DNA from: Thermodesulfovibrio sp.
GTDB lineage: Bacteria > Nitrospirota > Thermodesulfovibrionia > Thermodesulfovibrionales > Thermodesulfovibrionaceae
NCBI GenBank assembly: GCA_025060625.1
Contig: JANXBR010000002.1
Location: 1-46,165, forward strand
DNA length: 46,165 bases
Reading direction: 5' to 3'
This document shows positions 15,560 through 46,165 of this stretch, in pieces. The notes beneath the pieces are model-generated. The model saw only the letters and a list, made by a program, of their open reading frames with translations, ran no database searches and was not told where the DNA came from. The translations under genes were made by a program, and so were the position numbers. Each line of letters opens with the position of its first letter. Positions within the stretch are counted from its first letter, which is position 1.

Positions 15560-15561
15560 AT

Positions 15562-15585
15562 AGAGGGGGGACTTAAACCCCCTCT
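15562..15585. other. Perfect 8-bp G/C inverted repeat (hairpin) upstream of moxR
   Basis: AGAGGGGG (15562-15569) / CCCCCTCT (15578-15585) with 8-nt loop; + strand is followed by TTTATTTT. Confidence 0.6.
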
Positions 15586-15591
15586 TTTATT

Positions 15592-16491: not shown

Positions 16492-16590
16492 CTTACCCTC
16501 CTAAAAAAGTTTTTTTAAAAATTGTAAAATTTTGACAATTTCCACTTTAAAAAGTCAAGAAAAAGGTCATTAAAATTTAAAATAAAGTTA

Positions 16591-24206: not shown

Positions 24207-24242
24207 GTTTAAAGTGAAATGAAAGTTGATATAATATAAAAA
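24207..24242 (+). promoter_or_regulatory. Candidate promoter of the bcs operon; predicted start site falls on the bcsA ATG
   Basis: TATAAT at 24230-24235 with weak -35 TTTAAA at 24208-24213 (16-nt spacer). The ATG at 24242 is 7 nt past the -10; no SD visible upstream. Confidence 0.45.
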
Positions 24243-28713: not shown

Positions 28714-29737
28714 TCTAATAATAGTTTTTATGATTCTTTTTACATTTGAAATGAGCTTTGGAGACATTCTTGACAGATGGGCTAATTATAAAAAAACTTT
28801 CCTATCTGAAGACGGCAGAATTATTGATTTCCAAAACAACTCTATTACTCATTCTGAAGGACAGGGATACGGCATGCTATTAAGCCTTCTTTTTGACGAT
28901 AAACAGACCTTTGACAAAATTTGGAGTTGGACAAAAAACAATCTTATGGTAAGGAAGATGGATAAACTTTTTGCCTGGAGTTGGGGTCTTCATCCATCTG
29001 GTAAATGGCGAGTCTTAGATTATAACAATGCTACTGATGGAGATACTCTTATTGCCTATTCATTATGCCTTGCAGGTGAAAAATGGAAAATAGATGGCTA
29101 CATCAATGAAGCAAGAAATATTATAAGTGATTTAAGAGAACTTTTGATTATTAAAAGAGATGATTCCCATTTTCTATTACCTGGATACTATGGATTTTAC
29201 AAAGAAGATTCTTTAATCATAAATCCCTCTTACTATATACTGCCTGCATATAAAGTTTTTGCTAAATATGATGATAGAAGCTTTTGGGGAAAATTCTATT
29301 CCGATAGCATAAGACTTCTAAAAAATTTGAATTTTGGACCCTATAAATTACCCTCTGACTGGATTGTCTTAAAAGACAAAAATATTTACATTTTTTCTGA
29401 AAAAAAAGATACCTTCGGAATTGAAGCCATAAGAATACCTATTTATGCCATCATGGCTAAAGAATTCGAATTAATAGAAAAATTCAGAGATTTTATAGGC
29501 TTAGTAGAAAGAATCGGATATGTGCCTGAAGACATTGATCTAAAAGAAAATCGCCTATCCTATAAAGAAGGAATGGCTATGCATTACATAATAGTTTCAA
29601 GTTTGGCAAAACATTTTGAGAAAAGACAGTTAAGTGAAATTTTAAGGCAAAAGGGTCTTAAGAAATTGGAAGAAGAACATAAAAATTATTATTCCCATAC
29701 TCTCTCATTAATAGTTCTTGCTATGGAGGAAAGATGA
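28703..29737 (+). CDS. bcsZ: Periplasmic endoglucanase, glycoside hydrolase family 8
   Basis: 344 aa; signal peptide, HSEGQGYGMLLSLLFDD, AWSWGLHPSGKWRVLDYNNATDGDTLIAYSL; GTG start overlaps the bcsB end. Confidence 0.93.
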   Translation: MRSSLIIVFMILFTFEMSFGDILDRWANYKKTFLSEDGRIIDFQNNSITHSEGQGYGMLLSLLFDDKQTFDKIWSWTKNNLMVRKMDKLFAWSWGLHPSGKWRVLDYNNATDGDTLIAYSLCLAGEKWKIDGYINEARNIISDLRELLIIKRDDSHFLLPGYYGFYKEDSLIINPSYYILPAYKVFAKYDDRSFWGKFYSDSIRLLKNLNFGPYKLPSDWIVLKDKNIYIFSEKKDTFGIEAIRIPIYAIMAKEFELIEKFRDFIGLVERIGYVPEDIDLKENRLSYKEGMAMHYIIVSSLAKHFEKRQLSEILRQKGLKKLEEEHKNYYSHTLSLIVLAMEER

Positions 29738-32094
29738 AGACATTAATATATTTTTTACTAATTCTTACTCTTATAGATAATGCCTACTGCCAAGAGGGAA
29801 AGCAAGAGAACATTCTTAGAATTGAGAAATTTAAAGATAGTTCAACGATAATTCAAAATCCTATCCAATCTGAATTTTTTCCTTCAGTGGAAGAAAAAAA
29901 GGAAAAAATATCTTTGGAAACCTCAAAGCCTGCATTTTCGAGGATAACCTTAAATAAGAAAGTTTCAGAAAGTTTAGAGCTAAAAGGGGCTTGGAAATTA
30001 TATGAAGAAGGGAATTTCAAGGAAGCCTCTCTGAAATTTAAATCTCTTCTTAGTTCCTCTAACACAGAAATCTCTCTATCTTCAAGATTGGGACTTGCCT
30101 ACAGTTTGAAAAATCTTAGTTTAATTGATGAGGCTTTAGAGAATTTTGAATATCTATACAGTGAAAATTATAAAGAGCAGGAGATGGCAGAAAATATAGT
30201 TGATTTATTGATAATAAAGGAACAGTTTGAAAAAGCCGAGAAGTATGCAATCAAGCACTGTATTAAACCCTATCTGTTTTTTGAGCATGCTAAAAAACTA
30301 AAGAGTCTTAATGAAAAAAATCTTGCAAAGGAAAAGTTTTTGTCTCTTCTTTCCTGTTCAGAAAATGATATTAAATTAAGAACAGGAATACTATATGAGG
30401 TTGCCTCTTTAACTGATTATGACGAAATGCTTGGTATAGTTGAAAGGGAAAAGAAAAATTATAAAGATATAGAATATTTAGCAAAAATTAATCAATTGGA
30501 GGCAGATTTACATAGAAAAAAGCTTTCTAATATAGATATATCCTCTCCTTTAGTGGTTGAGTTGTCAGAAAAAATACTTAAAATTTTTCCTGATGACAGA
30601 GGAGCTAAAAGCAATCTTGCATGGCACTATTACAATGTTAAGAATTATGAAAAGTCTCTGAAAAATTTTTTAGAGCTGAATAAGGAGTATCCTCAAGAAG
30701 AGGAATATCTACTGGGAATTGCCTATTGTTATAATGCTTTAAATAAAGACCATGAATTAATAGAGTTGATAGAAAAAAATAAAGTTAGCTCTGAAAGACT
30801 AAATCTCCTTAAAGCGGATGCATATATTAGAAAGGCTGACCGGCATACTTTAAACAAAGAATATGGACAAGCTTTTTCCACTATACATAAGCTCTCAAAG
30901 CAAGAGGACAAAATTTCAAAACAAAAGGCTGCCTCATGGTATTGCAAGCAAGGCTTTTCCATCTTAGCATCCCATGTAGAATCTTCGGACAAAAATAGCT
31001 GCTACCATAGAGAACAGTTTCCTCAAATTGAAATAGCAGGCTTTTATAGGTATAAATCAGGTGATGAAGGCTTTTCCAAACTAAAAGAACTGAATGTGCC
31101 ACTTTCATTTTACTATCCTATCCGAGAAGGACAAAAACTTACCTTAAGAATTATTGAAAAGTATGTCTCTTCAGGTTCATCAGGAGAAAATCCCTATATG
31201 GGTAAATATTACAATTACCTGAACGGAGGCACACAGATAAATAAACCTATAACCTCAAAATGGCTTTTGCAACCTGAGATTAAATACGAAATAGAGGGCT
31301 ATCCTCATTTTAATTTGTTAATTGGAACAACGCCATTAAATGGAACAATATCTCCTATGCCTGTGTTTTTATTTGATATTAATTTCAAAGACTTTTGGTT
31401 TAATATATATCAAACTTCAGTGGAAGAATCTATCCTATCCATACAGGGACAAAGAGATCCCTATTCATCTGCTAAATGGGGAAGGGTATTAAAGACAGGC
31501 GTTCAGGCAGGATTAAATTTTGATTTGTCAAATTCATACTGGTTTACAATCTCTGGAGAGTTTGACTATATCTGGGGAAAAAATGTTTGGGAAAACTACT
31601 CCCTTACTGGTAATATGAGTATTGGTAAAACAATTCCCCTAAAGGAAAATAGCCAAGTGGATTTAGGACTTTTTTATGTAATCAAACATTTTAACAGAAA
31701 TAGTAATTTTTTCACCTATGGTCATGGGGGTTATTTTAGTCCACAGTTTTTCAGCATGGTGGGACCAACCTTTAGATATAGTTTAAAAGAATGCTGTGGC
31801 ATTGCCTTAGATATTAAAGCTTCATTTGGTTACATATATTATAGGACAGATTCAACTCCTCATTATCCAAAATTTTCTGATAATGAGATTCTATTTAATT
31901 CCTCAGCTATACAAGATATTAGGGGTTACTATGAGGGAGAGAAAAAATCAAAATTTGGTGGAAGCTTTGAAGCAAAAGCAAGACAAAATATAAGTAAAAA
32001 TATGGCAATCTACGGATATGGCAGAGGCAATCTTTCAGGTGGATACAATGAATGGAGCATAGGAGTAGGATTTACATACTACTTTATTCCGTAA
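29734..32094 (+). CDS. bcsC: BcsC-like TPR/outer-membrane beta-barrel cellulose export protein
   Basis: 786 aa; N-terminal TPR-like repeats, C-terminal BcsC-type barrel (GFYRYKSGDEGFSKLKELNVPLSFYYPI ... MVGPTFRYSL ... WSIGVGFTYYF); 4-nt overlap with bcsZ. Confidence 0.85.
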   Translation: MKTLIYFLLILTLIDNAYCQEGKQENILRIEKFKDSSTIIQNPIQSEFFPSVEEKKEKISLETSKPAFSRITLNKKVSESLELKGAWKLYEEGNFKEASLKFKSLLSSSNTEISLSSRLGLAYSLKNLSLIDEALENFEYLYSENYKEQEMAENIVDLLIIKEQFEKAEKYAIKHCIKPYLFFEHAKKLKSLNEKNLAKEKFLSLLSCSENDIKLRTGILYEVASLTDYDEMLGIVEREKKNYKDIEYLAKINQLEADLHRKKLSNIDISSPLVVELSEKILKIFPDDRGAKSNLAWHYYNVKNYEKSLKNFLELNKEYPQEEEYLLGIAYCYNALNKDHELIELIEKNKVSSERLNLLKADAYIRKADRHTLNKEYGQAFSTIHKLSKQEDKISKQKAASWYCKQGFSILASHVESSDKNSCYHREQFPQIEIAGFYRYKSGDEGFSKLKELNVPLSFYYPIREGQKLTLRIIEKYVSSGSSGENPYMGKYYNYLNGGTQINKPITSKWLLQPEIKYEIEGYPHFNLLIGTTPLNGTISPMPVFLFDINFKDFWFNIYQTSVEESILSIQGQRDPYSSAKWGRVLKTGVQAGLNFDLSNSYWFTISGEFDYIWGKNVWENYSLTGNMSIGKTIPLKENSQVDLGLFYVIKHFNRNSNFFTYGHGGYFSPQFFSMVGPTFRYSLKECCGIALDIKASFGYIYYRTDSTPHYPKFSDNEILFNSSAIQDIRGYYEGEKKSKFGGSFEAKARQNISKNMAIYGYGRGNLSGGYNEWSIGVGFTYYFIP

Positions 32095-32283: not shown

Positions 32284-32570
32284 CTACTGTGCATCTACTA
32301 ACCTTGAAATTCTTTTTAGTCTGATCTCAAAATTTTCTATATTTATTATTATCTTTCTGCTCATTTTTCCACCAATATCTTTTGTAATTACTGGAATTTT
32401 GTATTTTTCAAGAATCTCAAAGGCAACATCTATGTTTCGGTCGCCTATGAGACTTTTTTTGTTATCTCATCCTAAACACAAACTACTAAACAGGACCCTA
32501 AGGTTGTTACAATAGCTATATTGCCGTTTCCAAAATAAATAGTTCCTGGTAATAAAAAATTGGTGCCCAT
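32284..32570 (-). pseudogene. cheD: Degenerate cheD (chemoreceptor glutamine deamidase) remnant with internal deletion and frame change
   Basis: Frame A (32570-32472): MGTNFLLPGTIYFGNGNIAIVTTLGSCLVVCV*; frame B (32457-32284): KSLIGDRNIDVAFEILEKYKIPVITKDIGGKMSRKIIINIENFEIRLKRISRLVDAQ*. These match CheD N-terminal LGSCV and C-terminal IGxRNI...DxGGxxGRK motifs; the middle is missing. Confidence 0.8.
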
Positions 32571-32935
32571 TAAATTTTTCTTTCTCTTCAGAGAAAAATT
32601 CAGTTCCCGTTGAGATAATCTCAGGCTCAATGGCAATTTCATGAATTAATATTGAAAATAGATTATGGTCATTAATTTTTGTCGTAATAAGTTTGCCAGC
32701 CATTAAATCTATTACTAATTTAGTAACAGAAAATTATAGATTTTTCCCTCTACACTGCATAGATATATCCCTCATGAGATTGGTGATCTATGTAAAGTTT
32801 TTATTTATATGAGTTTCAACAAGCTCCTATCCTTTGTCCGTCTTAACTTTTTAAGATCTCTAATTATTAAAAAATTGTTGAAATAGGATCAAAAATCTCA
32901 TTCTTAAGATTGGCGATAAAACTCTATTTAAAAGA

Positions 32936-33019
32936 TTAACTTTCAAGAAGTTTTTCGTTCATATCTTTTAGTTTACTAACAAGGCATTTTATTATTTTGT
33001 CCTGTTCTAAGATATCCAT
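32936..33019 (-). CDS. Hypothetical 27-aa small ORF immediately downstream of the hybrid kinase
   Basis: MDILEQDKIIKCLVSKLKDMNEKLLES; SD GGAG 6 nt upstream of ATG; begins 30 nt after the kinase stop. Confidence 0.4.
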   Translation of the reverse strand: MDILEQDKIIKCLVSKLKDMNEKLLES

Positions 33020-33048
33020 ATTAAACTCCTATCCTAAAAATTATTAAA

Positions 33049-35724
33049 TTAAATTGAAAGGTTTAAAAATTCCCTAATCTCCTTTTCTGTCTCCTTCCAC
33101 TCTGTAATCAGATTTTCAATTAAACTTCTTAAGTGTTCCTTATTAAATTCTTTTTGTTTGTTTATCAAGTCAGCAATTTTCCCAACCATAATGAGTCCTG
33201 AAGAATAACTCGAACCTTTAAGTTTATGGGCTGCTTTTTTTAGTCTTTCAAAATCTCCATTTATATAGTGATTTTTAATCTCTTCTATATAAAAGGGTAA
33301 TGTTTCAATACTTAGTCGGAGTAAATTTGATACAAACTCTCTACTAAGTTGATTTTCTTCAAACATTTTATAGTCAATTCTGCTTATTTGCTCAGTTTTT
33401 TCTTCAATTTTATTTGATAAAAACTCTTTTACAATATGTCTTAAATCACTTAATTTAATAGGTTTTGAAAGGAAAAAATTAAAACCTTCAGATATTGCCT
33501 TTTTCTTTTCTTCTCCATTTGTATGTGCAGAAAGGGCTACAATAATAGCTTTTTCATTACTCTTTTTTATTAATCTTGTTGTCTCATAACCATCCATCTT
33601 AGGCATCTGAATGTCCATAAAAGTTATATGAGGATTAATATTTTTGTGAAGTATTATGGCAGTTTCTCCATTTTCTGATTCAAATATTTCTGCATTAGGA
33701 AGAGTTTTTTGAATCAGGTATTTGAGAAGCTTTCTGTTTGTTTCTAAATCATCTACAACGAGAATTTTAAAGGGCTCATAACTGAGAATAATGTCAGTTT
33801 CTTTTATTCCTCTTACTTCTGATTCTCTCTCCTCAAGGGCTTTCATTAATCTTCTCGTATTTATCGGTTTTTGAAGATATGTATCAGCAATTTTGAAAAA
33901 CCTATCAACAATTTGTTGAATGTTTTCAATGGGTTTATAAATAACGACAACTTTATTTATTTTTCCTCTATTTTTAAAATCTATAATTATATCAAAAAAT
34001 TTATCAATTTCAATGGATTTAATGTCTGAATCAAGAATGAGAAAATCAAAATGCTCATATTTATTAATTAATTCTAAAAAATCTCTTTCATTTGAAGGAA
34101 TAATAGCCTCTACTCCCCAGTATAAGAGATAATTCATCATTGATACGAATCTTTTATCAAGTTCAAATATAAGAAGAGCTTTTTTACCTAAGAGTTTTTC
34201 AAAGTTTTGCTCTGAGGTATCTTCAACAATATCAAAAATTAACTCAAAAGAGAACTTACTTCCCTTTCCTAATTTTGATTTAACCTTTATATCGCTTCCC
34301 ATCAACTGAAGAAGTCTTTTTGTAAGAAAAAGACCTAATCCGACTCCAAATTTTCTTTCAGTTAAATTTTCTTCTACCCTGTAGAAAGGTAAGAAAATCT
34401 TATCAATTTTATCTTCACTTATTCCTATTCCAGTGTCAGATACATTAAATTGAACTTTTGCTTTATTTGGGGGCATATTTGTTCTATCACATATTATACC
34501 GAACTCTATAAAACCTTTTTCAGTGTATTTTATTGCATTGGAAATAAGATTTATTAGGATTTGTTTAAGCCTTAATTTATCAACGATCACCTTCTCTGGA
34601 AGAATTGGTGATATGTAAAGATAAAACTCAAGTCCTTTAAGATAGCACTCATACTTAAGATGATCAACTACATCAAATATTAGTTCAGGAAGATTTGTCT
34701 CCTCTGGATTTAACTTGAGAGTATAGTTCTCAAGCTTTGAAATCTCAAGTAAATCGGTAATAATTGACATAAGACTCTCACACATATTTTTTATATTTTT
34801 TAGATAATCTATGTAAACCTCCTTTAAATCGCTACTAAGAAGAAGTAAGTTGGTATAACCAAGAATATTACTTAAAGGAGTTAAAAGTTCATGTCCCATC
34901 ATTGATAAAAATCTTGACATTACTTGATAGGCTTTTTCTGTTTTTTGCTTTTCACTCTCTAATCTTCTAATTAAATCATTTCTTTCTTGAATATCAAAGT
35001 ATATTCCTAATATTCCAGATACTTTTCCTTCGCTATCTGAAAATGAGGCTTTATGAAACTCCACTTCCCTAAGGGATCCATCCTTTGTTATCATCTTGAA
35101 TGAGTAAATCTGCTTTTCTGTTTTTTCTAAGATCATTAGGTCCTGTTCATTATAGACCTTTGCAATCTCATGGGGATAAAGTTCAAAAACAGTTTTACCA
35201 ATTGCATCTTTTTTGCTTATACCAGTGAAATCCTCAAAGGCTTTATTTACATAGGTGTATTTTAAGTTTTTATCTTTAACAAAAATTGGCAAGGGAATTA
35301 AATCTAATATCTTATCAACAAGAGGTTCTAATCCTGTATGGGTTATAACTAAATCTTCCGATTTCCTTAACTTAGCCACATAGTATTTTTCCTTCTCTAT
35401 ATTGATTTGATAGAGTGAAAATGTAGCCTTTATTTTTTTTCCATCTTTTCCATGACAGATAACATAGAAATTTTTTCCTATTGATTTGGATTTTTCAGAA
35501 TTAATCAAGATATCAAAGACTTTATCTGAGCACTCAATATCTTCAGGGAAAGATAGAATTCTATTAATATCAATGCCTATTATTTGTTCAAGTTTATACT
35601 CAAAGAGTTCTTCACATCTTTTACTCCAAAAAACAATCTTACAGGCTTCGTCAATAATGATAACACAGTCACAGACTTTATCTAATATCTCTTCAAATAT
35701 CCTATTTTTAATTTTTATCTTCAT
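33049..35724 (-). CDS. PAS-PAS hybrid sensor histidine kinase with two receiver-like domains and C-terminal HPt (BarA-like layout)
   Basis: 891 aa; MMGHELLTPLSNILGY H-box, NLISNAIKYTEKG, VSDTGIGIS, REC KILVVDDLETN...TFMDIQMPKMDGYETT...LSKP, HPt AAHKLKGSSYSSG. Confidence 0.95.
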   Translation of the reverse strand: MKIKIKNRIFEEILDKVCDCVIIIDEACKIVFWSKRCEELFEYKLEQIIGIDINRILSFPEDIECSDKVFDILINSEKSKSIGKNFYVICHGKDGKKIKATFSLYQINIEKEKYYVAKLRKSEDLVITHTGLEPLVDKILDLIPLPIFVKDKNLKYTYVNKAFEDFTGISKKDAIGKTVFELYPHEIAKVYNEQDLMILEKTEKQIYSFKMITKDGSLREVEFHKASFSDSEGKVSGILGIYFDIQERNDLIRRLESEKQKTEKAYQVMSRFLSMMGHELLTPLSNILGYTNLLLLSSDLKEVYIDYLKNIKNMCESLMSIITDLLEISKLENYTLKLNPEETNLPELIFDVVDHLKYECYLKGLEFYLYISPILPEKVIVDKLRLKQILINLISNAIKYTEKGFIEFGIICDRTNMPPNKAKVQFNVSDTGIGISEDKIDKIFLPFYRVEENLTERKFGVGLGLFLTKRLLQLMGSDIKVKSKLGKGSKFSFELIFDIVEDTSEQNFEKLLGKKALLIFELDKRFVSMMNYLLYWGVEAIIPSNERDFLELINKYEHFDFLILDSDIKSIEIDKFFDIIIDFKNRGKINKVVVIYKPIENIQQIVDRFFKIADTYLQKPINTRRLMKALEERESEVRGIKETDIILSYEPFKILVVDDLETNRKLLKYLIQKTLPNAEIFESENGETAIILHKNINPHITFMDIQMPKMDGYETTRLIKKSNEKAIIVALSAHTNGEEKKKAISEGFNFFLSKPIKLSDLRHIVKEFLSNKIEEKTEQISRIDYKMFEENQLSREFVSNLLRLSIETLPFYIEEIKNHYINGDFERLKKAAHKLKGSSYSSGLIMVGKIADLINKQKEFNKEHLRSLIENLITEWKETEKEIREFLNLSI

Positions 35725-37681
35725 TTTTTATATAGTAATCAATTTTTTTGGGATTCCCGAGATAGAAACCTTGCATGTATTTAACTCCCAGTTCCCTGAG
35801 TACTTCAAGCTTTTCCTCTGAATCAACTCCCTCTGCAATTACTTTTATCCCTAAAACCTCAGCCATCTTTACAATAGAAAGCACTATGTGTCTGTGAGTA
35901 ATGTCTGAGACTATTTCTTTTGTGAGAGACATGTCAATCTTTATTGAGTCAGGGTCAATTTCTTCAAGAAGTTCTATATTTGAAAATCCTGTTCCAAAGT
36001 CATCTAAGGATATGTAATATCCATGATATTTAAGACGATTTATGTTATCTCTTATCTCTTTTAATTTAAAAATCTCTTGTGTTTCAATTAGTTCTATTGC
36101 TATATTTTCTGAACTAACTCCCTTTTCTTTACATTCCTTTCTTATAAAATCAACAATCTGGGAATCAAAGAGTTGAACAAGAGAAATATTAATATGAATT
36201 GGCTTATTAAGAACTCTTTGAGCTTTTATTGCCTCTTTTATCACATATTTACCTACTTCAATAATCATTCCTGTTTTTTCAATCATAGGAATAAACTCAG
36301 CAGGAGATACCTCCCCAAGTTTTGGGTTATTCCATCTTAAAAGAGCTTCATATGAATGGATTTCATTATTTTCTATATTAAATATCGGTTGAAAGACAAT
36401 ATAAAACTCATTATTATCAATAGCCATAGATATTAAATTTAAAATCTCTTTCTGTCTCTCTTCATATTTGTGCATCTCCTTAGTATATATAGTAATTTTA
36501 CCTTTACCCATACTCTTTGACCTATATAAAGCTAAGTCACTTTTTTTCATTGCATCATAAAAATTATCAAATTTGGATACAAGATGAACTCCTATTGATA
36601 CAGTAACTCTGACATTTGAATGAATCAAACTATAGATTCCCTCTATCTTTTCTTTTATGTAACTTAATAATTCTTGAAGTTTGCGGTATTCATCATATTC
36701 GCCAAAAATCATAAATTCATCACCACCAGTTCTTCCAACAAAAATTTTATTCTCCTCGGATATCTTCATTAATCTCTCAGCAAACTCCATTAAAAGATAA
36801 TCACCCATATTGTGTCCGAAGAAATCATTTATTTCCTTAAAGTTGTCTATATCTATTATTCCTATAAATAGTCTCTCTTTATTTTGAGCTTTAAGCTCAC
36901 TGAAGGCTTTTACTATATAATATCTGTTGGGAATTCTTGTTAGATAGTCATAGTGAATGAGTTCCCATAGTCTTTTGGAAGTTTTATTTAGTTTTTCGCT
37001 TATTTTGGCAAATTCATTATTCCCTTCAATTTTTTTTGGATTTACATAGTGACCTCTTACAATGGAATCAACCTGTTCTGATATTATCTTTAAGTTTTTT
37101 GTTACTGACATGTTTAATAGAAACATTAATATAAAGCTTGCAATCAATATGATAGCTAAGTGTATCGTATATCGTAAAGACAAAAATTTAATAATCTGTG
37201 ATTCAAAGACTTCTCTTTTTATACTCATGATTAAATAGCCATAAGGTTCCTCTTTAACAAAAATCGGATTTATGCATATAATTTTATCTTTTGAATTTTG
37301 ACAACCTAAATTTACTTTTTTTATGTCTACATAAGTGTCTATATTTTTCTCTCTATTTGAAGCTACAACTAATCCAAAAAAGTTTACCAGATCAATAGTA
37401 TCTATACTTTGGTGAATGGAGAAATTTTTGATAATTTTCTTAATTTGTTCAATATCTCCAGTTTCATAAAAATACTCAATTTGTTGCTGAATTGTATTTT
37501 GCATTAGTTTTGCATCTTCAATAATCAGATTATTATTTATAAAGCTTAGACTGAATCTAAAATCAAAGAATATTAAGATTAGATTCACAATCAGAGCAGA
37601 AAAAACAACCATTAGGGGAATTAGTAATGAAATCTTATATTTTTGGAATATCTTATGAATTTTATTCTCTATAAAGTTCAT
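35708..37681 (-). CDS. Membrane GGDEF-EAL protein with periplasmic sensory region and HAMP-like linker
   Basis: 657 aa; two TMs flanking an extracytoplasmic region; RTGGDEFMIF; YEALLRWNNP, ELIET, DDFGTGFSN, DSIKIDMSL, AEGVDSEE, MQGFYLGNP. Confidence 0.96.
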   Translation of the reverse strand: MNFIENKIHKIFQKYKISLLIPLMVVFSALIVNLILIFFDFRFSLSFINNNLIIEDAKLMQNTIQQQIEYFYETGDIEQIKKIIKNFSIHQSIDTIDLVNFFGLVVASNREKNIDTYVDIKKVNLGCQNSKDKIICINPIFVKEEPYGYLIMSIKREVFESQIIKFLSLRYTIHLAIILIASFILMFLLNMSVTKNLKIISEQVDSIVRGHYVNPKKIEGNNEFAKISEKLNKTSKRLWELIHYDYLTRIPNRYYIVKAFSELKAQNKERLFIGIIDIDNFKEINDFFGHNMGDYLLMEFAERLMKISEENKIFVGRTGGDEFMIFGEYDEYRKLQELLSYIKEKIEGIYSLIHSNVRVTVSIGVHLVSKFDNFYDAMKKSDLALYRSKSMGKGKITIYTKEMHKYEERQKEILNLISMAIDNNEFYIVFQPIFNIENNEIHSYEALLRWNNPKLGEVSPAEFIPMIEKTGMIIEVGKYVIKEAIKAQRVLNKPIHINISLVQLFDSQIVDFIRKECKEKGVSSENIAIELIETQEIFKLKEIRDNINRLKYHGYYISLDDFGTGFSNIELLEEIDPDSIKIDMSLTKEIVSDITHRHIVLSIVKMAEVLGIKVIAEGVDSEEKLEVLRELGVKYMQGFYLGNPKKIDYYIKNEDKN

Positions 37682-38627
37682 TTAGTATCTTTATATCAAT
37701 TAGTTTAGAATAATCAACTGGTTCTTTTAATGAAAAATACTTCTCGATCAATCTGAGCTTTTGTTCAAGCTCTCCTTTAAGCAATAACTCCCTGTTTTCT
37801 TTTTTATCAAAAAACTTTATCTTATCAAAATTAAATATATCATGCAATTTTTCCATTGAAATTTTATAGTTTTCACTTAGATATTTATCATACATATCAC
37901 TATTTGATATTTTAAATTCATCAATTATTTCGAAATAATGATTAATCATATCTTTTATCTTTTTTTTGTTTTTTAAGAGAAAATCTCTCCTTACCAGAAC
38001 AAAGTCATAAACTTCTCCAGGAATCTGCTTACTTGAGAATATTATATTTCCTCCTAAAGCAGATATGATTCTTGAAGCTATTGGCTCATAGGTAATGACA
38101 GCATCAATATCTCCCTCAGCAAAACTCTTATAGTGCTCATGGGGTTCAACATAGACTAAAAAGAAGTCCCTTTCATCAAATTTATTAATTTCCAGAAATC
38201 TTTTGAACATATATCTTCCCAATGCTGTATTTTCAAGTCCAATTCTTTTTCCTTTAAGAGCTGAGGGTTCTTTTATGTCTTTCCTGGCAATAATTAAGTC
38301 TGCTCCTTCAGATACTGATAATACAATCAAAATAGTATAAGGATCATTTTCTGTGTAATTTCTTAAAACTTCATCTGTTGTAAGACATAGAGAGTTTATT
38401 AATCTGTTTCTGTAAGCTCTTAATACTTCACTGGTTGAGTTAAACTCTATAACTTCAAAATTTTTATCAAGTATTTTGGCATCCTGTAAATAATACAAAA
38501 AGCCATAGCCAAGCCAGTATGAAGTGCCAATTTTAATATCTTCATTATACAGTGTGCTTTCAGTATATATCAAAAAGGCAATAATTAAAATAAATATAAC
38601 AGCAAACAATACAAATCTATATCTCAA
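37662..38627 (-). CDS. TauA/NMT1-like periplasmic substrate-binding protein, probably membrane-anchored
   Basis: 321 aa; N-terminal hydrophobic helix without lipobox; IKIGTSYWLGYGFLYYLQD, ALKGKRIGLENTALGRYMF, GDIDAVITYEPIASRI; overlaps the GGDEF-EAL gene by 20 nt. Confidence 0.9.
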   Translation of the reverse strand: MRYRFVLFAVIFILIIAFLIYTESTLYNEDIKIGTSYWLGYGFLYYLQDAKILDKNFEVIEFNSTSEVLRAYRNRLINSLCLTTDEVLRNYTENDPYTILIVLSVSEGADLIIARKDIKEPSALKGKRIGLENTALGRYMFKRFLEINKFDERDFFLVYVEPHEHYKSFAEGDIDAVITYEPIASRIISALGGNIIFSSKQIPGEVYDFVLVRRDFLLKNKKKIKDMINHYFEIIDEFKISNSDMYDKYLSENYKISMEKLHDIFNFDKIKFFDKKENRELLLKGELEQKLRLIEKYFSLKEPVDYSKLIDIKILNELYRE

Positions 38628-38652
38628 ATTAGCAAACTCCGAATAGTTTTTA

Positions 38653-39207
38653 TTATATTTTATCTTCTAATAACTCTCTTTTTATACAGTCATTACATAT
38701 GATGTCAGATATCGTTATATTTGTAAATTTATAGTATTTAATTGCCTCTTCAATCTCAATCCAGGAGTTATTATAATGGAATCTGTTACATATGCTACAT
38801 CTTAATATGGTTTCTTTTCCTTTAATATTTCCAAATAAAAATGGATGGTTAATATGATCTCTCACTTCTTCCACCTTTATAATGTAATGATTAATCAATA
38901 TATCACCATTTCTTAAAGGAATGACCTCCATCTCCATAAATCGCTTTTTATCATGGGAGTCACATCTGTAAGGTCTTGTTATATTAATACCAAGATTTTT
39001 TGCCAGATTAATGATTGACTCATACCACATCTTTACTGAGTCTCCTTTAATGTATTCCATTATGTTTTTTCCTTTTATGTTGTTACTTAAAGTATTCCTG
39101 TCTCCATCATTTTCCCTTAAAAATTTATCCCAATTTGGATGTACATCTATTATTATAAAATCCTTATTTATTACATAAGAATTTTGAACTTTATTTTTTT
39201 GTTGCAT
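38653..39207 (-). CDS. PAS-like domain protein with C-terminal CxxC...CxxC (putative zinc-binding) motif
   Basis: 184 aa; PAS-like N-terminus (SYVINKDFIIIDVHPNWDKFLREN...), C-terminal CSICNRFHYNN...IICNDCIKREL. Confidence 0.65.
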   Translation of the reverse strand: MQQKNKVQNSYVINKDFIIIDVHPNWDKFLRENDGDRNTLSNNIKGKNIMEYIKGDSVKMWYESIINLAKNLGINITRPYRCDSHDKKRFMEMEVIPLRNGDILINHYIIKVEEVRDHINHPFLFGNIKGKETILRCSICNRFHYNNSWIEIEEAIKYYKFTNITISDIICNDCIKRELLEDKI

Positions 39208-39228
39208 TTTTAGAATAATAAAGGTTTT

Positions 39229-42138
39229 TTAGTCTTGTTTTTTCTTGGGTAGTTCCATAATGGTTCCCACTACTCCAATAATTTTTCCATCCTCATATAT
39301 TGGATTGCCAGTTGTTTTAATAGTTATCTCCTCCCCAGTATATTTTTTAAAAGGAAATATTAGGTCATAAGGAACTCCCTCTTTTAAGCATTTATTAAAG
39401 GCTTCGTAAATCTCCTTTGCTCTATCTCCATAACATTTAAGGGATTTTTCAATCAATAAAAGAGGATCATCTTCATACTCTCTCTTTTCAAGACCATGAA
39501 TAAGATAGACCTCATCGGTCCAGTACATCTTGTGATTTATAATATCAAAATACCATCCACCAATATTAGCAATCTTATGCGTTTCCTTCATTATTTTTTC
39601 CTTTATCTCAAGAGATTGAGTTACCCTCTTGTACTCAGTAATATCAATAAAAACTAATACAACTCCTGTGCTGTCAGATTTTTTATAAATGAAGGGATTG
39701 ATTTTCATCAAATAGCTGCTTCCATCAGTTGTCTCTATTTCGTGAGATATCGGTCTTCCATCAATAATTGCCCTTTTAATATGAATATATGGTTCAAAAT
39801 CTATAATTTTGTGATTTATATGATTGATTGGTGCTCCTATATCAATGTCTGCTATATCAAATATATCTTTAACCTTTGGGGAGTATTTCTTTATTCTCAA
39901 ATCTGGATCAAGCATGATTATCCCTATCTGAGAGGATGTTAAAAGGCTCTCTAAGTCATTTTGCAGTTCAGTTAGTTCAATTATTTTATTTTGCAATTCA
40001 TTGTTGACTGTGTAAAGCTCTTCATTAGTTGCCTGAAGTTCTTCATTGGTTGCCTGGAGTTCTTCATTACTTGCCAGGAGTTCTTCATTGGTTGCCTGAA
40101 GTTCTTCATTTGAAGTCTCAAGTTCTTCAATTGTAGCATGAAGTCTCTCCTTTGTTCTCTGAAGTTCATTTTCAAGTTCTTTAATATAACTTTCTTTTAG
40201 GCTCAACGATGAATCTTCAAAAACCTCCACCTCTTCAGAAATTTTTTCTTGAGTTTTTTGACTAATCATTAATATGCAGAAATAATTTTCTTCAGATTCA
40301 TCTATAGGGATTATTTCAAATTGAACAGCTTCTTTTTTCTTCGGGATTTTTTTTGTAATCTTTACTCTCTTAGAGAAGTCTATTGATTTTTTTATCATGC
40401 TAATAAGTATTTTTGAAAAATCTTTTTTGATTACTTTCTCTAAGTTTAGACTTGGTACACCAATCGGAAGGGTAAAATATTTATCAACATTTCCATCTAA
40501 ATAGATAAGGTTCAAATTTTTATCTACTACAGCGATAGCATCAAAAAATTTTTTAGAGATTGCTTTTAAGATTATTTCCGTATTAAGTCCCTTTTCTTTG
40601 TGATAAGTATCAGCAAAATATTGATAGATAATATTTTTTCTTAAATTATCCTGTGTTTTTTCTACTGAGATTCTTTCAATAGGAATTTCCAGGGCCTGTC
40701 TTATGTTTTCTCTTGCTTTGTATATTTTTAGTTTTGAATCCAGAGTTTCAAAGAGTTTTGTATGTTCACCTATTGACTCGCTTGTGCCAAGAACCAGTGT
40801 TCCTCCTTTCTTAAGAGAGAAGTAGAATATTTTTATTAGCCTGTTTTGAGTCTCTGGTTTTAAGTATATAAGCAGATTTCTACAACTTAATAGACATATG
40901 TTGGTAAATGGTGGATCTTTAAGAATGTTATGTTCAGCGAAAACTATTGATTCTCTGATTCTTCTCTTTATTATGTACTGATTATCACTCTTTGTGAAGT
41001 ATTTACTTAAAAATTCATGGGGCACATCGGCAGCTATGCTTTCTGGATAAATTCCCAATGAGGCAACTTGTAAGGCTCGCCTGTCAATATCGGTAGCAAA
41101 AATTTTAATTTTGCGACTAACCCTCATTTTTTCCATTACATCATTGAATAGAATAGAGATTGTATAAGCTTCTTCCCCAGTTGAACAACCAGCTACCCAT
41201 ACTCTCAGCCATTCATCATCAAATTTTTCTATGATATCAGGAATATATTTTTCTCTTAACTCTTGAAAAACCTGAATGTCTCTGAAAAAGCTTGTTACTC
41301 CAATGAGAAAATCTTTATATAGTAGTTCAATTTCTGTAGGGTTTTTGTATAAATAGTTAAGATAGTCTACTATGTTTTCCACTCTGTTAATTGCCATTCT
41401 TCTTTCAATTCTTCTTATAATGTTTGAAGGTTTATAGAGAGTAAAGTCTACATTATGGTTTGCCTTAAGGAGAGCGAGAATTCTCTGGAGAATTTCATCC
41501 TTCGTAATAACATCATCTTTTTCCTCAACAATGTAGTTTGTCGGATACTTTGGCATGGAAATAATCTTTTTAGCAATCTCTACTGGATTCATAACAAAAT
41601 CAACAACTCCAGTAGATATAGCTGATTTAGGCATACCATCAAACTTAGCTGATTTCTCATCTTGAACAAAGATTATTCCACCATGTTCCTTAATATCTCT
41701 TATTCCTCTTGCACCATCCGTTCCTGTTCCTGATAATATCACAGCTATAGCCTTTTCACCCTGGTCTATTGCAAGTGAACGAAGAAAAGTGTCAATGGGA
41801 AAATTAAGTCCTGTTAAATCGGATACATCCTCTACAACTAATTTTCCATTGGATATGGTCATTTTCTTTTTTGGTGGTATAACATAGATATTTCCTCCTT
41901 CAACTATCATACCATTTTTCGCCTCATGAACAGGTATTTTTGTTCGCTTTGATAAAATTTCTACCATCATGCTTTTGTAATTAGGCGAGAGATGTTGGAT
42001 GATTATTACTGCTATGTTGTTCTTTATTGGCAAATTTTGAACAAAAGACTCAATAGCCTCAAGTCCTCCTGCTGAAGCACCAAGACAAACAAAGTAATCT
42101 GGAAATTTTGATCTTTGAGTTAAATTAGAGTCATTCAT
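39229..42138 (-). CDS. CheB methylesterase-CheR methyltransferase-PAS fusion protein
   Basis: 969 aa; CheB GASAGGLEAI, IIQHLSP, LSGTGTDGARG; CheR RRIERRMAINRV, LIGVTSFFRD, WVAGCSTGEEAYTI; EELQATN heptads; PAS domains. Confidence 0.97.
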   Translation of the reverse strand: MNDSNLTQRSKFPDYFVCLGASAGGLEAIESFVQNLPIKNNIAVIIIQHLSPNYKSMMVEILSKRTKIPVHEAKNGMIVEGGNIYVIPPKKKMTISNGKLVVEDVSDLTGLNFPIDTFLRSLAIDQGEKAIAVILSGTGTDGARGIRDIKEHGGIIFVQDEKSAKFDGMPKSAISTGVVDFVMNPVEIAKKIISMPKYPTNYIVEEKDDVITKDEILQRILALLKANHNVDFTLYKPSNIIRRIERRMAINRVENIVDYLNYLYKNPTEIELLYKDFLIGVTSFFRDIQVFQELREKYIPDIIEKFDDEWLRVWVAGCSTGEEAYTISILFNDVMEKMRVSRKIKIFATDIDRRALQVASLGIYPESIAADVPHEFLSKYFTKSDNQYIIKRRIRESIVFAEHNILKDPPFTNICLLSCRNLLIYLKPETQNRLIKIFYFSLKKGGTLVLGTSESIGEHTKLFETLDSKLKIYKARENIRQALEIPIERISVEKTQDNLRKNIIYQYFADTYHKEKGLNTEIILKAISKKFFDAIAVVDKNLNLIYLDGNVDKYFTLPIGVPSLNLEKVIKKDFSKILISMIKKSIDFSKRVKITKKIPKKKEAVQFEIIPIDESEENYFCILMISQKTQEKISEEVEVFEDSSLSLKESYIKELENELQRTKERLHATIEELETSNEELQATNEELLASNEELQATNEELQATNEELYTVNNELQNKIIELTELQNDLESLLTSSQIGIIMLDPDLRIKKYSPKVKDIFDIADIDIGAPINHINHKIIDFEPYIHIKRAIIDGRPISHEIETTDGSSYLMKINPFIYKKSDSTGVVLVFIDITEYKRVTQSLEIKEKIMKETHKIANIGGWYFDIINHKMYWTDEVYLIHGLEKREYEDDPLLLIEKSLKCYGDRAKEIYEAFNKCLKEGVPYDLIFPFKKYTGEEITIKTTGNPIYEDGKIIGVVGTIMELPKKKQD
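40018..40143 (-). repeat. Six tandem 21-bp units encoding a heptad coiled-coil (NEELQAT-type) linker within cheBR
   Basis: Units start at 40018, 40039, 40060, 40081, 40102, 40123; core ttcttcattggttgcctgaag. Confidence 0.9.
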
Positions 42139-43705
42139 CTTTAAAATTTAATGGTAAATAAACCTTAACTTTTGTTCCTATATTTGGTACTGACTCAATC
42201 TCAACTTTACCCTCATGAGCTTCTACAATACCTTTAACTTCAGATAGCCCTACTCCAAGAGCATTGATAGCAAGTTTTGTAGTAAAGAAAGGCTCAAATA
42301 CTCTATCAAATATTTCTTCTTTTATACCTTCCCCTTGATCCTCTATCTCAAATATAATCCAGCTATTTTGTTGCTCAGAGAGAACTTTATATACTCTAAT
42401 ATAAATTTTTCCACCTTCTGACATTGCCTCAATGGAGTTCTTAATAATGTGATAGAGAGCATAGGATATTAATTCTGAATCAACTATTATTTTCTCAGCA
42501 TTTAAGTTTTCATAGTTGATTACTAAATCAATGTTAGATGGAATAATATCTCTACATCTATCAAGAGTTAAAGATATAAGATTTTCTATCGTGATAGGTC
42601 TCTTTAAAAGTATTATATTTTTACTTACGTTTAAAATCTTATTTATTAAATTTGTTGCCTTTTCAACAGATTTAATAATGATATCAAGTTCTTTCTCATA
42701 TTTGCTAAGATCAGGTTCATTTTTTAGCATCTGAGCAACTACAAGTATAGGCATGTTTATATTATTCAAATTATGAGCAATTATTCCGGATATGTTGTAT
42801 ATAAATCTAATCTGTTCTTCTCTCTTTTCTCTTTCAGCCCTTTGAAGTTCTTCTGTTATGTCTCTTTTTACTGCTATGAAATTGATAATTCTACCATTTT
42901 TGTCAAATATGGGAGATATGAAAGCCTCTTCAATAAAAAATTCTCCATTTTTGTTTTTGTTTATGAATCTTCCCCGCCAAGCCTTGCCTTCTTTTAGCAT
43001 AGCCCATAGTTCTTTATAGGTTTCTTTTGGTGTCTTTCCTGATTTTAAAACTCCAGGATCTTTACCCATAAGCTCCTCTTTGCTGTAACCTGATACCTTT
43101 GTATAGTTTTCATTCACATAAACAATTCTATTTCTTCTGTCTGTTATTACTATTGAGACAGGTGCTGCTTCAATAATTGACATATATGTCCTTATAAGAT
43201 TTTCTCTATCTACTATATCTGAAATGTCAGTTATTGTTAAAAGAAGGCTATTTTTATCAATAGTTGGTCTTGTTAAAATAATAGTATTGTAAATTTTATG
43301 TTTTCCTTTTATCTTCAATTCCATTTTCTTTCCTATTTTTTCATTGAAGTAGTCTCTGAAATTTAGAATAAATTTATTTTTATCATCTGAGTCAACATAA
43401 TTGACAAAGGGAGTTCCCACTATTTCATCTGCTTCTTTACCAATTAAATTTTTAAATGCTTCATTACAGTTTTTTATTATTCCATTAATATTTATCGTCA
43501 CATATCCTATAGGTGCTGAATTAAAAAGTTCTATATATTGATTTTTTATTGTGTCAATCTCAAGATTAAGTCTTCTAAGCTCCTCGGTTTGCATCTCCAA
43601 CTCACGCTTATGGATTAACAGTTCCTGAATTAGTCTGTCTTTTTCAAGTTCATTGAGATTAGTTTCTAAGATGTTGCTATTTATCTCTATCATTTTAATC
43701 ACCAT
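42131..43705 (-). CDS. PAS-PAS sensor histidine kinase
   Basis: 524 aa; PAS repeats, IIAHNLNNINMPILV H-box, HIIKNSIEAMSEGG N-box, FEIEDQGEGI, GVGLSEVKGIVEAHEG. Confidence 0.95.
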   Translation of the reverse strand: MVIKMIEINSNILETNLNELEKDRLIQELLIHKRELEMQTEELRRLNLEIDTIKNQYIELFNSAPIGYVTININGIIKNCNEAFKNLIGKEADEIVGTPFVNYVDSDDKNKFILNFRDYFNEKIGKKMELKIKGKHKIYNTIILTRPTIDKNSLLLTITDISDIVDRENLIRTYMSIIEAAPVSIVITDRRNRIVYVNENYTKVSGYSKEELMGKDPGVLKSGKTPKETYKELWAMLKEGKAWRGRFINKNKNGEFFIEEAFISPIFDKNGRIINFIAVKRDITEELQRAEREKREEQIRFIYNISGIIAHNLNNINMPILVVAQMLKNEPDLSKYEKELDIIIKSVEKATNLINKILNVSKNIILLKRPITIENLISLTLDRCRDIIPSNIDLVINYENLNAEKIIVDSELISYALYHIIKNSIEAMSEGGKIYIRVYKVLSEQQNSWIIFEIEDQGEGIKEEIFDRVFEPFFTTKLAINALGVGLSEVKGIVEAHEGKVEIESVPNIGTKVKVYLPLNFKDE

Positions 43706-45447
43706 TAATTATTAGTTTTTAATTCTAAAGGAATTGCTTCTGAAACAAGACTTTTACCTTTTAAATCAAATAATACAAAACACTGGTTACCTGCAAAATT
43801 GAAGAAAAATTCATCTGTAAGATGATTAACTATATCAAGTCCGTACTTACTGTAGTATCCTGTCTCAATAGATGTTCTATCAAAACCTTTACCTTCATCT
43901 TCAATGGTTATGTAAATTTGTTTTTTAGTTAAAGATATAACTATTGTTAGTTTAATAGACTTATTGACGGTCTTTTCAAGTTTGGCAATAAATTTTTCAT
44001 AGTAGCTTTCTTCATGAATTTCTGAGTCCTTAATATCAGTGGTGATACCTAAATTTCCATGTTCATGGGCATTAAGAAGAAGTTCACTAAGAACAACTCC
44101 AACTTTATTTGATATATTTTTAAATCTTTTTGACCTATTAAGCCTATCACAAAAAATTTTAATAAATCTGTTTATATCTTTAAGAGTAGAATTGATCGTA
44201 AAGGTTTTCTTAAAGTATCCATCAAATGAGACTTTATTAATAAATATTGCTGTAACATCATCAGGTATTTCCTCAAGCTCATCATTTAATTTTTTCAGAA
44301 AATTTTTCATATATTTAGTCTTTGGAATACTTTGTATAAGTTTATGATAGTAAATCTTATTTTCCCTATCCTTTGCCTCAATAATACCATCTGAAACTAA
44401 AAAAACTTTTTCTAAGTTATCAATTTTTATTATATCAATTTTAAAATCATTAGTGTTTTTATTTATTGGTGTGTTATTTGGCTTTATAATTGTTAATTTT
44501 TTATCTATTACCAAAAACATAGGCGGCATTGAAAAATTGGAATATAATATCTTTTGATCCCTAAAATCTATCTCAATAAATAAGGCACAGACTATCTCTT
44601 CATCAAGCAGAATAGTTTTTATGAAATCAAGGAACTTTTTAATAGTTTTATTTATTATTGGAAAACTTATACGAGTTGTATATTTTGATATGAGATAATT
44701 TAAAATAGCCGCTGAATTTATTGAAGTAATTGAAGAGGAAAATCCCTTTCCCATTGTATCAATTAGATAAATAAAAACTCTTCTATCATCAATCAATCTT
44801 ATTGAGTAACAATCGCCACTTAAAATCTCCCTCGGTTTATAAAAAGATTTAAAGTAGTAGATATTATCTCCAACCTCAAATTTCTTAAGAAATGTGGCAT
44901 CTTTTAAGTCATCTTTAAGAATATTAACTTGTTTTTTGTATGCCTCTTTCTGATGATATTCATTATACTTCTCTTTATATTTCATTAGTTCAATTTCCTT
45001 TTTCTGCTTATCAATAAGTATCTTTTTGAGAAGTATTCTATGAACAGCATACTCAATTGCTTCAAGTAGTTTGGTTCCCATCGCAGGTTTCTTGAGATAT
45101 CTATCAACACCAAGATTTACAATTTCTGCAACTGGAAGCCTATCTTCAACAGTAAGTAATATAGTACAAATATCAGGATTATATTTTTTTGCAATTTTTA
45201 TAAGTTCTACACCTGTTAGGTCGTTCATCCAATAATCTGTTATGAGGAGATCTACATGATGGTTTTCAAGATAATATGAAGCATTGAGAGGAGAGTTTAA
45301 ACATAATAAATTAGGAATATAAGGAGATAAAAACATCTCAAGAGAAGCTGTTGTAAGATAATCATCATCAACAACCAAAACCCTTATCTCTCTTAAGATT
45401 TCAGAGGTTTCACTATATCTATATGCATGGGATGTGGAGGTAATCAT
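43705..45447 (-). CDS. Response regulator with PP2C/SpoIIE-type phosphatase and C-terminal RsbW-like HATPase
   Basis: 580 aa; REC VLVVDDDYLT...LLITDYWMNDLTG...LKKPA; PP2C SGDCYSI, DTMGKGFSSS, LVSDGIIEAKD; HATPase ELLLNAHEHGNLG, EDEGKGFD, YGLDIVNHL. Confidence 0.95.
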   Translation of the reverse strand: MITSTSHAYRYSETSEILREIRVLVVDDDYLTTASLEMFLSPYIPNLLCLNSPLNASYYLENHHVDLLITDYWMNDLTGVELIKIAKKYNPDICTILLTVEDRLPVAEIVNLGVDRYLKKPAMGTKLLEAIEYAVHRILLKKILIDKQKKEIELMKYKEKYNEYHQKEAYKKQVNILKDDLKDATFLKKFEVGDNIYYFKSFYKPREILSGDCYSIRLIDDRRVFIYLIDTMGKGFSSSITSINSAAILNYLISKYTTRISFPIINKTIKKFLDFIKTILLDEEIVCALFIEIDFRDQKILYSNFSMPPMFLVIDKKLTIIKPNNTPINKNTNDFKIDIIKIDNLEKVFLVSDGIIEAKDRENKIYYHKLIQSIPKTKYMKNFLKKLNDELEEIPDDVTAIFINKVSFDGYFKKTFTINSTLKDINRFIKIFCDRLNRSKRFKNISNKVGVVLSELLLNAHEHGNLGITTDIKDSEIHEESYYEKFIAKLEKTVNKSIKLTIVISLTKKQIYITIEDEGKGFDRTSIETGYYSKYGLDIVNHLTDEFFFNFAGNQCFVLFDLKGKSLVSEAIPLELKTNN

Positions 45448-45764
45448 TCTGACTTTGTAACTTTGAAGATATCAATAAGCCCAAGGATCTCAAATAAAAG
45501 ATAGAGATCTTCGTTTTTTGCAACAACATGTATATTTATCTTATCTTTCTGTGTCACTTTTAGGAGAAATCCTATAATTGAAGATGTAACTGCATTGGAT
45601 TCTTCAAAAACTATTTTTATATCTCGGAAATTATTAGATATCATCTCAACTATTTTCTCTCTTATAAGGGCATAATCAGCAATATTTTGGACTTGACCAT
45701 AAATTCTTATTAAGTTATTTGAGACACTGACTTCAATATTTGTATCTTTCCCAAAAATATTCAT
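45444..45764 (-). CDS. STAS-domain protein (anti-sigma factor antagonist-like)
   Basis: 106 aa; IKIVFEESNAVTSSIIGFLLKVTQ...LYLLFEILGLIDIFKV; SD gaggaggatgca upstream. Confidence 0.85.
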   Translation of the reverse strand: MNIFGKDTNIEVSVSNNLIRIYGQVQNIADYALIREKIVEMISNNFRDIKIVFEESNAVTSSIIGFLLKVTQKDKINIHVVAKNEDLYLLFEILGLIDIFKVTKSE

Positions 45765-45789: not shown

Positions 45790-45818
45790 ATTATATAAAT
45801 TTTTTTTTCAATTGTAAA
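45790..45818 (-). promoter_or_regulatory. Sigma70-like promoter of the STAS/REC-PP2C/HK/CheBR/... operon
   Basis: On - strand: TTTACA (45818-45813), 17-nt spacer, TATAAT (45795-45790). Confidence 0.65.
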
Positions 45819-45967
45819 GTCTCCGCCTTTCCTCTGTGGTTACTATATTATTGAAAAAGCAAAGAAATACATACTCCCTAATTGGATCATAAATGTAAAA
45901 AGTAATATACAAAATTTTTACCATAGCAATAAAATTTTAACAACATTAGTAAAAAAAGAAGGAAGTA

Positions 45968-45996
45968 TTGACATTTTTTTTAAAAGTGGATAAAAT
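45968..45996 (+). promoter_or_regulatory. Sigma70-like promoter of cydA
   Basis: TTGACA (45968-45973), 17-nt spacer, TAAAAT (45991-45996). Confidence 0.75.
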
Positions 45997-46027
45997 TAGT
46001 CAACAATTTAAAATTTAGGAGGGAGGT

Positions 46028-46165
46028 ATGGACACAGTTTTATTAAGTAGGCTACAGTTTGCCATAACTGCTGCCTTTCATTTTATCTTTGTTCCCCTTA
46101 CTCTTGGATTGTCCATCCTTGTAGCTTATATGGAGACAAAGTATGTTAAAACTGGAGACAAAGAC
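46028..46165 (+). CDS. cydA: Cytochrome bd ubiquinol oxidase subunit I (partial, runs off right edge)
   Basis: [48 protein letters not shown] aggaggg upstream. Confidence 0.9.

Follow-up and report, generated by a model that had tools for sequence, protein, structure and literature searches.

The window analysed here is a 46,165-bp stretch of DNA from Thermodesulfovibrio sp., a thermophilic sulfate reducer, and is one whole contig (G000:C107) of a draft genome that is 66.6% complete in 184 contigs. Its minus strand carries eight signalling genes in series, running from 45764 to 33049. We read them, with middling confidence, as one composite signalling operon with several inputs, the most likely common output being cyclic di-GMP (c-di-GMP). 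The operon is assembled from four modules that recur separately in other genomes, namely a STAS protein with a REC-PP2C-kinase (module A), a CheB-CheR-PAS fusion with a PAS partner (module B), a substrate-binding protein (SBP) with a GGDEF-EAL protein (module C), and a hybrid kinase with an HPt domain (module D). The output is suggested by the relatives, in which modules A and B adjoin GGDEF-EAL genes and module C adjoins a GGDEF gene. This comparative evidence strengthens c-di-GMP integration as a plausible role, and it agrees with a preliminary description of the DNA that proposed a compact multi-input unit with internal c-di-GMP turnover. The comparisons cover 16 genomes of the genus (the source and 15 congeners, 11 of these nearly complete) and 150 genomes of the order Thermodesulfovibrionales.

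The list of open reading frames, Pfam and other domain scans agree with that description on the eight genes, their domains and their tight junctions. All of the key catalytic and phospho-acceptor motifs that were checked are there in the operon proteins. The STAS gene overlaps the REC-PP2C-kinase gene by 4 nt, the latter overlaps the PAS-histidine kinase gene by 1 nt, and this one overlaps the CheB-CheR-PAS gene by 8 nt. The PAS-Cys4 gene is set off by gaps of 21 nt from CheB-CheR-PAS and 25 nt from the SBP gene, whereupon the SBP and GGDEF-EAL genes overlap by 20 nt and the GGDEF-EAL and hybrid kinase genes by 17 nt. The STAS gene has a strong Shine-Dalgarno sequence (AAAGGAGGAGG), and GGAG stands ahead of the TTG start of the SBP gene. 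The eight genes are probably co-transcribed. A promoter-like site on the minus strand (45790..45818; TTTACA-17-TATAAT, 11/12 match to the consensus) ends 26 nt upstream of the STAS ATG. This site had been regarded as the one good promoter of the operon; it is indeed well placed, but the region holds no excess of sigma70-like sites (74 vs 78.7 expected), and two minus-strand matches inside the operon, at 38573 and 34013, are as good. Domain scans of the operon proteins found no transcription factor, sigma factor, methyl-accepting chemotaxis protein (MCP), CheA or CheW, as had been noted before, and the lack of the last three distinguishes the operon from a classical Che adaptation module. Among these proteins, convincing membrane segments occur in the SBP and the GGDEF-EAL protein only, so periplasmic input would enter solely via these two.

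Module A is a putative partner switch. The STAS-only protein (45444..45764; 106 aa) is of the anti-anti-sigma type by alignment, and its Ser61, located in the motif TSSxIG, is invariant among aligned homologues. It has no Pfam hit and matches SpoIIAA models weakly in another domain scan. Its AlphaFold model, with 24 homologues in the input, has a predicted local distance difference test (pLDDT) score of 92.9, and the best matches of the model among solved structures in the PDB are SpoIIAA, RsbV and RsfB. The protein is hence predicted to have the SpoIIAA/RsbV fold. The neighbouring gene (43705..45447) encodes a 580-aa response regulator with a receiver, a SpoIIE-type PP2C phosphatase and an RsbW-like HATPase domain, assigned by Pfam and motifs. 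Its intact residues include the receiver Asp, the PP2C motifs GD, DxMGKG, SDG and DDVT with the metal-binding Asp, and the N-box and G-box of the RsbW-like kinase. The catalytic residues are kept in 12 relatives from other families of the order, at 28-33% identity, and in the REC-PP2C-kinase and STAS families the catalytic and phospho residues persist across phyla.

When GTDB contigs were searched, the window REC-PP2C-kinase as a lone query gave no locus, and an alignment query gave 72 loci, chiefly from Nitrospirota, Deferribacterota and Campylobacterota. A recognisable STAS gene is present in 47 of the 68 loci examined. By gene neighbourhood, STAS and REC-PP2C-kinase are usually adjacent and form a conserved pair in these three phyla. 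Several of the loci include c-di-GMP enzymes. At L107, a GGDEF-EAL gene lies directly before the PP2C gene and overlaps it, with PAS and MCP genes beyond STAS; at L151, a REC-GGDEF-EAL gene lies near the pair. At L110:2345-8844, a 1060-aa GGDEF-PAS-PP2C-kinase fusion, by its domains a predicted c-di-GMP enzyme joined to a partner-switch protein, is flanked by two STAS genes and followed by a GGDEF-PAS-HisKA_2 kinase. Within flanks of up to 10 kb, none of the 68 loci has a CheB-CheR, SBP or PAS-Cys4 gene. As a separate observation, Campylobacterota have a recurring order of STAS, a protein of about 658 aa and REC-PP2C-kinase (L104, L112, L113, L132, L134, L135, L142, L143, L154-L156). The 658-aa protein of L104, the sole one scanned, is an MCP with a nitrate/nitrite-sensing NIT domain, which suggests that this cluster links partner switching to nitrate/nitrite chemoreceptors. 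The source genome also has a 93-aa STAS-like gene between cheY and cheA of its che cluster (L048:7872-8153, contig G000:C130).

Module B centres on a 969-aa fusion (39229..42138; Pfam, homologues and motifs) that holds CheB, CheR_N, CheR, a coiled coil and two PAS domains in one chain and lacks a receiver domain. Both active sites are intact, with the CheB motifs GAS, QH and GxGxDG and the CheR motifs TSFFR and GCSTGEE. The gene upstream (42131..43705) encodes a cytoplasmic PAS-PAS-histidine kinase of 524 aa, identified by Pfam, another domain scan and motifs. None of the 15 congeners has the fusion; what matches there is CheB or CheR as a protein on its own. Fusions with a PAS partner are common in the order, and those of other families share 36-41% identity with the window protein over CheB, CheR, coiled coil and PAS. 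The gene directly after the fusion encodes a PAS/kinase or PAS-GGDEF-EAL protein in 10 of the 12 loci read further, and nine of these ten partners match the N-terminal half of the window PAS-kinase. The partner is a PAS-GGDEF-EAL protein in G088 and G095. The window resembles these loci in having an adjacent PAS-kinase with a related N-terminus. It differs in that the kinase gene is upstream rather than downstream, and in that the fusion, absent from congeners, is combined with STAS/PP2C and SBP/GGDEF-EAL genes. Among the papers searched, none was a functional study of CheB-CheR-PAS fusions. A separate full che cluster with MCPs is located on contig C130 of the same genome.

The small PAS-Cys4 gene (38653..39207; 184 aa) sits exactly between the CheB-CheR-PAS and SBP modules. 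The earlier domain labels hold overall, the ones without a Pfam match being STAS, which is settled by its fold, and PAS-Cys4, whose PAS part is assigned on weak homology. A single-sequence AlphaFold model of PAS-Cys4 is unusable (pLDDT 38). No homologue was found in the 150 genomes of the order, and homologues with 23-30% identity occur in two other Nitrospirota families. Its C-terminal C-x2-C...C-x2-C resembles the motif CSYCKKIRxDxGxW...FSHGxCxxC, which elsewhere occupies the C-terminus both in G048, on a CheB-CheR-PAS protein, and in G037 and G075, on HAMP or membrane sensors beside SBPs. The form CxxCKKIRxDxGxW...FSHGxCxxC was noted at L198:5716-8985, L206:6410-7429, L042:407-1438 and window positions 38653-39207; our scans assigned it no Pfam name.

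Module C consists of an SBP and a membrane enzyme. The periplasmic SBP (37662..38627; 321 aa, TTG start, N-terminal membrane segment) belongs to the Pfam families NMT1/NMT1_2, and its nearest solved chains, with weak similarity, are taurine- and sulfonate-binding; the window yielded no transporter genes. The GGDEF-EAL protein (35708..37681; 657 aa; Pfam and motifs) has a periplasmic region between its transmembrane segments. GGDEF, EAL (EALLRW) and DDFGTG are intact, and the RxxD inhibitory site is lacking. In five genomes of the order, the best SBP homologues (31-33% identity) directly precede a membrane sensor gene, whose output is GGDEF in G067 and kinase-like in G017, G105, G146 and G049. 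Module D is a cytoplasmic hybrid kinase of 891 aa (33049..35724; Pfam and motifs) with the architecture PAS-PAS-HisKA-HATPase-REC-HPt. The phospho-acceptor His of HisKA, Asp of the single receiver called by Pfam and His of HPt (motif HKLKG) are all present.

The closest counterpart of the combination is found in another family of the same order. Contig G037:C8 encodes on one strand, in order, CheB-CheR-PAS, PAS-HK-REC, an NMT1 SBP, a HAMP protein ending in Cys4, a Cache-histidine kinase and a REC-HD protein. It thus shares with the window a series of CheB-CheR-PAS, PAS-kinase, NMT1 SBP, Cys4 motif and kinase. Different from the window, the stretch read has no STAS/PP2C gene, an HD protein takes the place of GGDEF-EAL, Cys4 is fused to a HAMP membrane protein, and the gaps are wider. 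G096 has CheB-CheR-PAS, a GNAT-like gene, an SBP, a HAMP protein and kinases. These two loci indicate that modules B and C associate elsewhere and that module A is an unusual addition. All 15 congeners lack the operon marker proteins; probably, either lateral transfer brought the operon into the species or this is the sole sampled congener to have kept it. The G+C content of the operon genes is 27-32%, vs 31-38% for most window genes, and the third-position G+C is similar, so base composition does not settle a foreign origin. Published Thermodesulfovibrio genomes are 1.87-2.05 Mb in size, and strain N1 has a G+C content of 34.4% (PMC5165239). A plasmid origin was considered and rejected, there being no full-length match among 72,556 plasmid records.

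These features suggest the following scheme. The SBP would bind a small periplasmic solute and signal, presumably by direct contact, to the GGDEF-EAL protein in the membrane, shifting its balance between c-di-GMP synthesis and breakdown as in NspS-MbaA. The hybrid kinase, via its own receiver and HPt domain, would phosphorylate the receiver of REC-PP2C-kinase, which would then set the phosphorylation of STAS Ser61. STAS would change its partner accordingly, most likely a c-di-GMP enzyme, or else an anti-sigma factor encoded elsewhere. CheB-CheR-PAS and the PAS kinase may form a regulatory or adaptation module, for which the genome’s own MCPs are the first candidate methylation targets. That CheB-CheR instead reversibly methylates an operon protein (GGDEF-EAL, STAS or a kinase), laying an adaptation memory on the c-di-GMP output coupled to the partner switch, strikes us as highly improbable. 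One probable transcript would unite partner switching, Che-type methylation, a phosphorelay and an SBP-gated c-di-GMP enzyme, making their cross-talk testable in a few proteins. In Nitrospirota and Campylobacterota, CheB-CheR-PAS, SBP/sensor and STAS/PP2C pairs each sometimes accompany c-di-GMP enzymes, a hint at what the poorly understood CheB-CheR-PAS proteins may control.

Several observations weigh against a composite operon with a shared c-di-GMP output. The STAS/PP2C pair in most relatives adjoins HDOD-like or MCP genes, not c-di-GMP enzymes. Homology between the periplasmic region of GGDEF-EAL and that of a relative’s SBP-partner sensor is undetectable, 26% of shuffles being as good. 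The whole eight-gene set occurs in no other genome examined, so co-function of all eight genes draws no support from conservation. The neighbours of the pair in most relatives would also fit a partner switch that acts on a sigma factor, as do HsbR/HsbA with FlgM/FliA and HsbR/CrsR with RpoS, with the c-di-GMP enzyme and CheB-CheR as parallel outputs sharing only a transcript. The targets of HsbA and HsbR/CrsR are anti-sigma or sigma factors (PMC6482189, PMC5085249), and REC-PP2C-kinase unites the same activities as HsbR. However, the operon has no sigma or anti-sigma gene, and several genomes have c-di-GMP enzymes fused with the STAS/PP2C pair or linked to it; we consider a sigma-factor target possible, if on the unlikely side. 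Very unlikely, in our judgement, is that the operon is not one functional unit and that unrelated signalling genes came together through insertion at a variable locus or through an assembly join. In congeners the flanking genes ileS and cydA are widely separated, indicating a rearranged locus with a synteny breakpoint, the homology of bcsA with the nearest relative stops sharply at 24217, and the genome is an incomplete draft in many contigs. On the other hand, at all seven junctions the genes overlap by 1-20 nt or are no more than 25 nt apart, sequence specific to the genus makes up both flanks on this one contig, and G037 likewise has CheB-CheR, PAS-kinase, SBP, Cys4 and kinase grouped together.

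The preliminary description had the operon converge on cellulose, as a local c-di-GMP controller devoted to the cellulose synthase next to it. The bcsA-bcsB-bcsZ-bcsC operon (24242..32094, plus strand; open reading frames and Pfam) is a convergent neighbour outside the signalling operon. Pfam confirms the PilZ domain of BcsA, which has RxxxR and DxSxxG. A bcsABZC operon with an upstream GGDEF gene has already been described in Thermodesulfovibrio (PMC5165239); three congeners have such a gene directly upstream of bcs, and it is missing in the window. Adjacency on one contig, the PilZ motifs and the missing GGDEF gene all favour a cellulose controller. Against it, the operon is found in none of the 15 congeners, with or without bcs, and bcsABZC, present in six of the 15, never stands beside it. 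The check that had been proposed, the eight-gene order and its linkage to bcs in relatives, was run and found the neighbourhood not conserved. The adjacency itself is real on the contig, but the gap between the convergent units (about 32300-33020) is filled by a decayed histidine kinase-cheD pair (32299..33023, minus strand), which had gone unmentioned. No bcsA or bcsB homologue lies in the flanks (up to 10 kb) of the 68 STAS/PP2C loci, and GGDEF domains are encoded at no fewer than seven further places in the genome. In G017 and G029, which have both, the bcsB and STAS/PP2C loci are separated by about 256 kb and by up to 2.3 Mb. Co-occurrence of the two at the genome level was examined and discarded as evidence: the nominal Fisher p is 0.024, but all three genomes with both belong to a single genus, and two of them have the loci on one contig at distances of hundreds of kb or more. 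The comparative evidence thus corrects the cellulose inference, which is largely unsupported, and the position beside bcs looks incidental, an accident of this genome. The missing upstream GGDEF gene and the sharp end of bcsA homology leave room for a species-specific cellulose role, the one supporting observation being the adjacency; we doubt that the operon is such a controller.

The flanks have their own history. The decayed pair, not a working gene given its stops, frameshifts and deletion, shows 67-73% DNA identity to an intact pair at the che cluster edge (G000:C130; L048:266-1572). The bcs region 24217-31677 is 98.6% identical to G011:C39 (L030), though ileS is only 72-78% identical; bcsA differs from that of G011 by about 11% over its first 0.5 kb, and the homology to G011 ends abruptly at 24217. 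This mismatch may reflect a recent bcs exchange between species or a misbinned contig. In G015, bcsB (L034:7941-10880) is split by an inserted 200-aa open reading frame, probably a mobile element, with a longer version at 15204-16556. Beyond the STAS gene, the divergent cytochrome bd gene cydA starts at 46029 (plus strand; region 45966-46165). Its 60-bp upstream sequence is kept in congeners without the operon, and a promoter-like site TTGACA-17-TAAAAT lies upstream at 45968-45996.

The reading of the operon as a c-di-GMP unit finds parallels in three known systems. In Pseudomonas aeruginosa, phosphorylation of the HsbR receiver by the HPt protein favours phosphatase over kinase and leaves STAS unphosphorylated; when the receiver is not phosphorylated, STAS is phosphorylated by the kinase and in that state binds the diguanylate cyclase HsbD (PMC5085249). 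The window shares with HptB-HsbR-HsbA-HsbD a response regulator with phosphatase and serine kinase domains (residues intact here), an adjacent STAS anti-anti-sigma protein with a phospho-serine site and, by analogy, a predicted HPt input from a hybrid kinase and a c-di-GMP enzyme as one target. It differs in that HPt is fused to a hybrid kinase encoded in the operon itself, the c-di-GMP enzyme is a GGDEF-EAL protein of the membrane paired with an SBP, and no FlgM or other anti-sigma gene is nearby. SypE-SypA of Vibrio fischeri likewise pairs a STAS-only protein with a receiver-controlled kinase/phosphatase that acts on it, and its output is polysaccharide and biofilm. The receiver of SypE is central (PMC3610818), whereas here it is N-terminal in the order REC-PP2C-HATPase; the syp genes lie inside the polysaccharide locus they serve, whereas here such a locus is merely a convergent neighbour. 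Module C recalls NspS-MbaA of Vibrio cholerae and Sinorhizobium meliloti, which makes or degrades c-di-GMP according to ligand (PMC8967002). In both, the SBP gene overlaps a GGDEF-EAL gene with two transmembrane segments, by 20 nt here and 16 bp for V. cholerae nspS/mbaA (PMC9993111), and MbaA also lacks the RxxD site. The periplasmic region is shorter here, and the SBP is NMT1/SsuA-like, not of the PotD/PotF family, so a polyamine ligand is not expected. The parts of the operon are known from such systems, and their combination is unusual.

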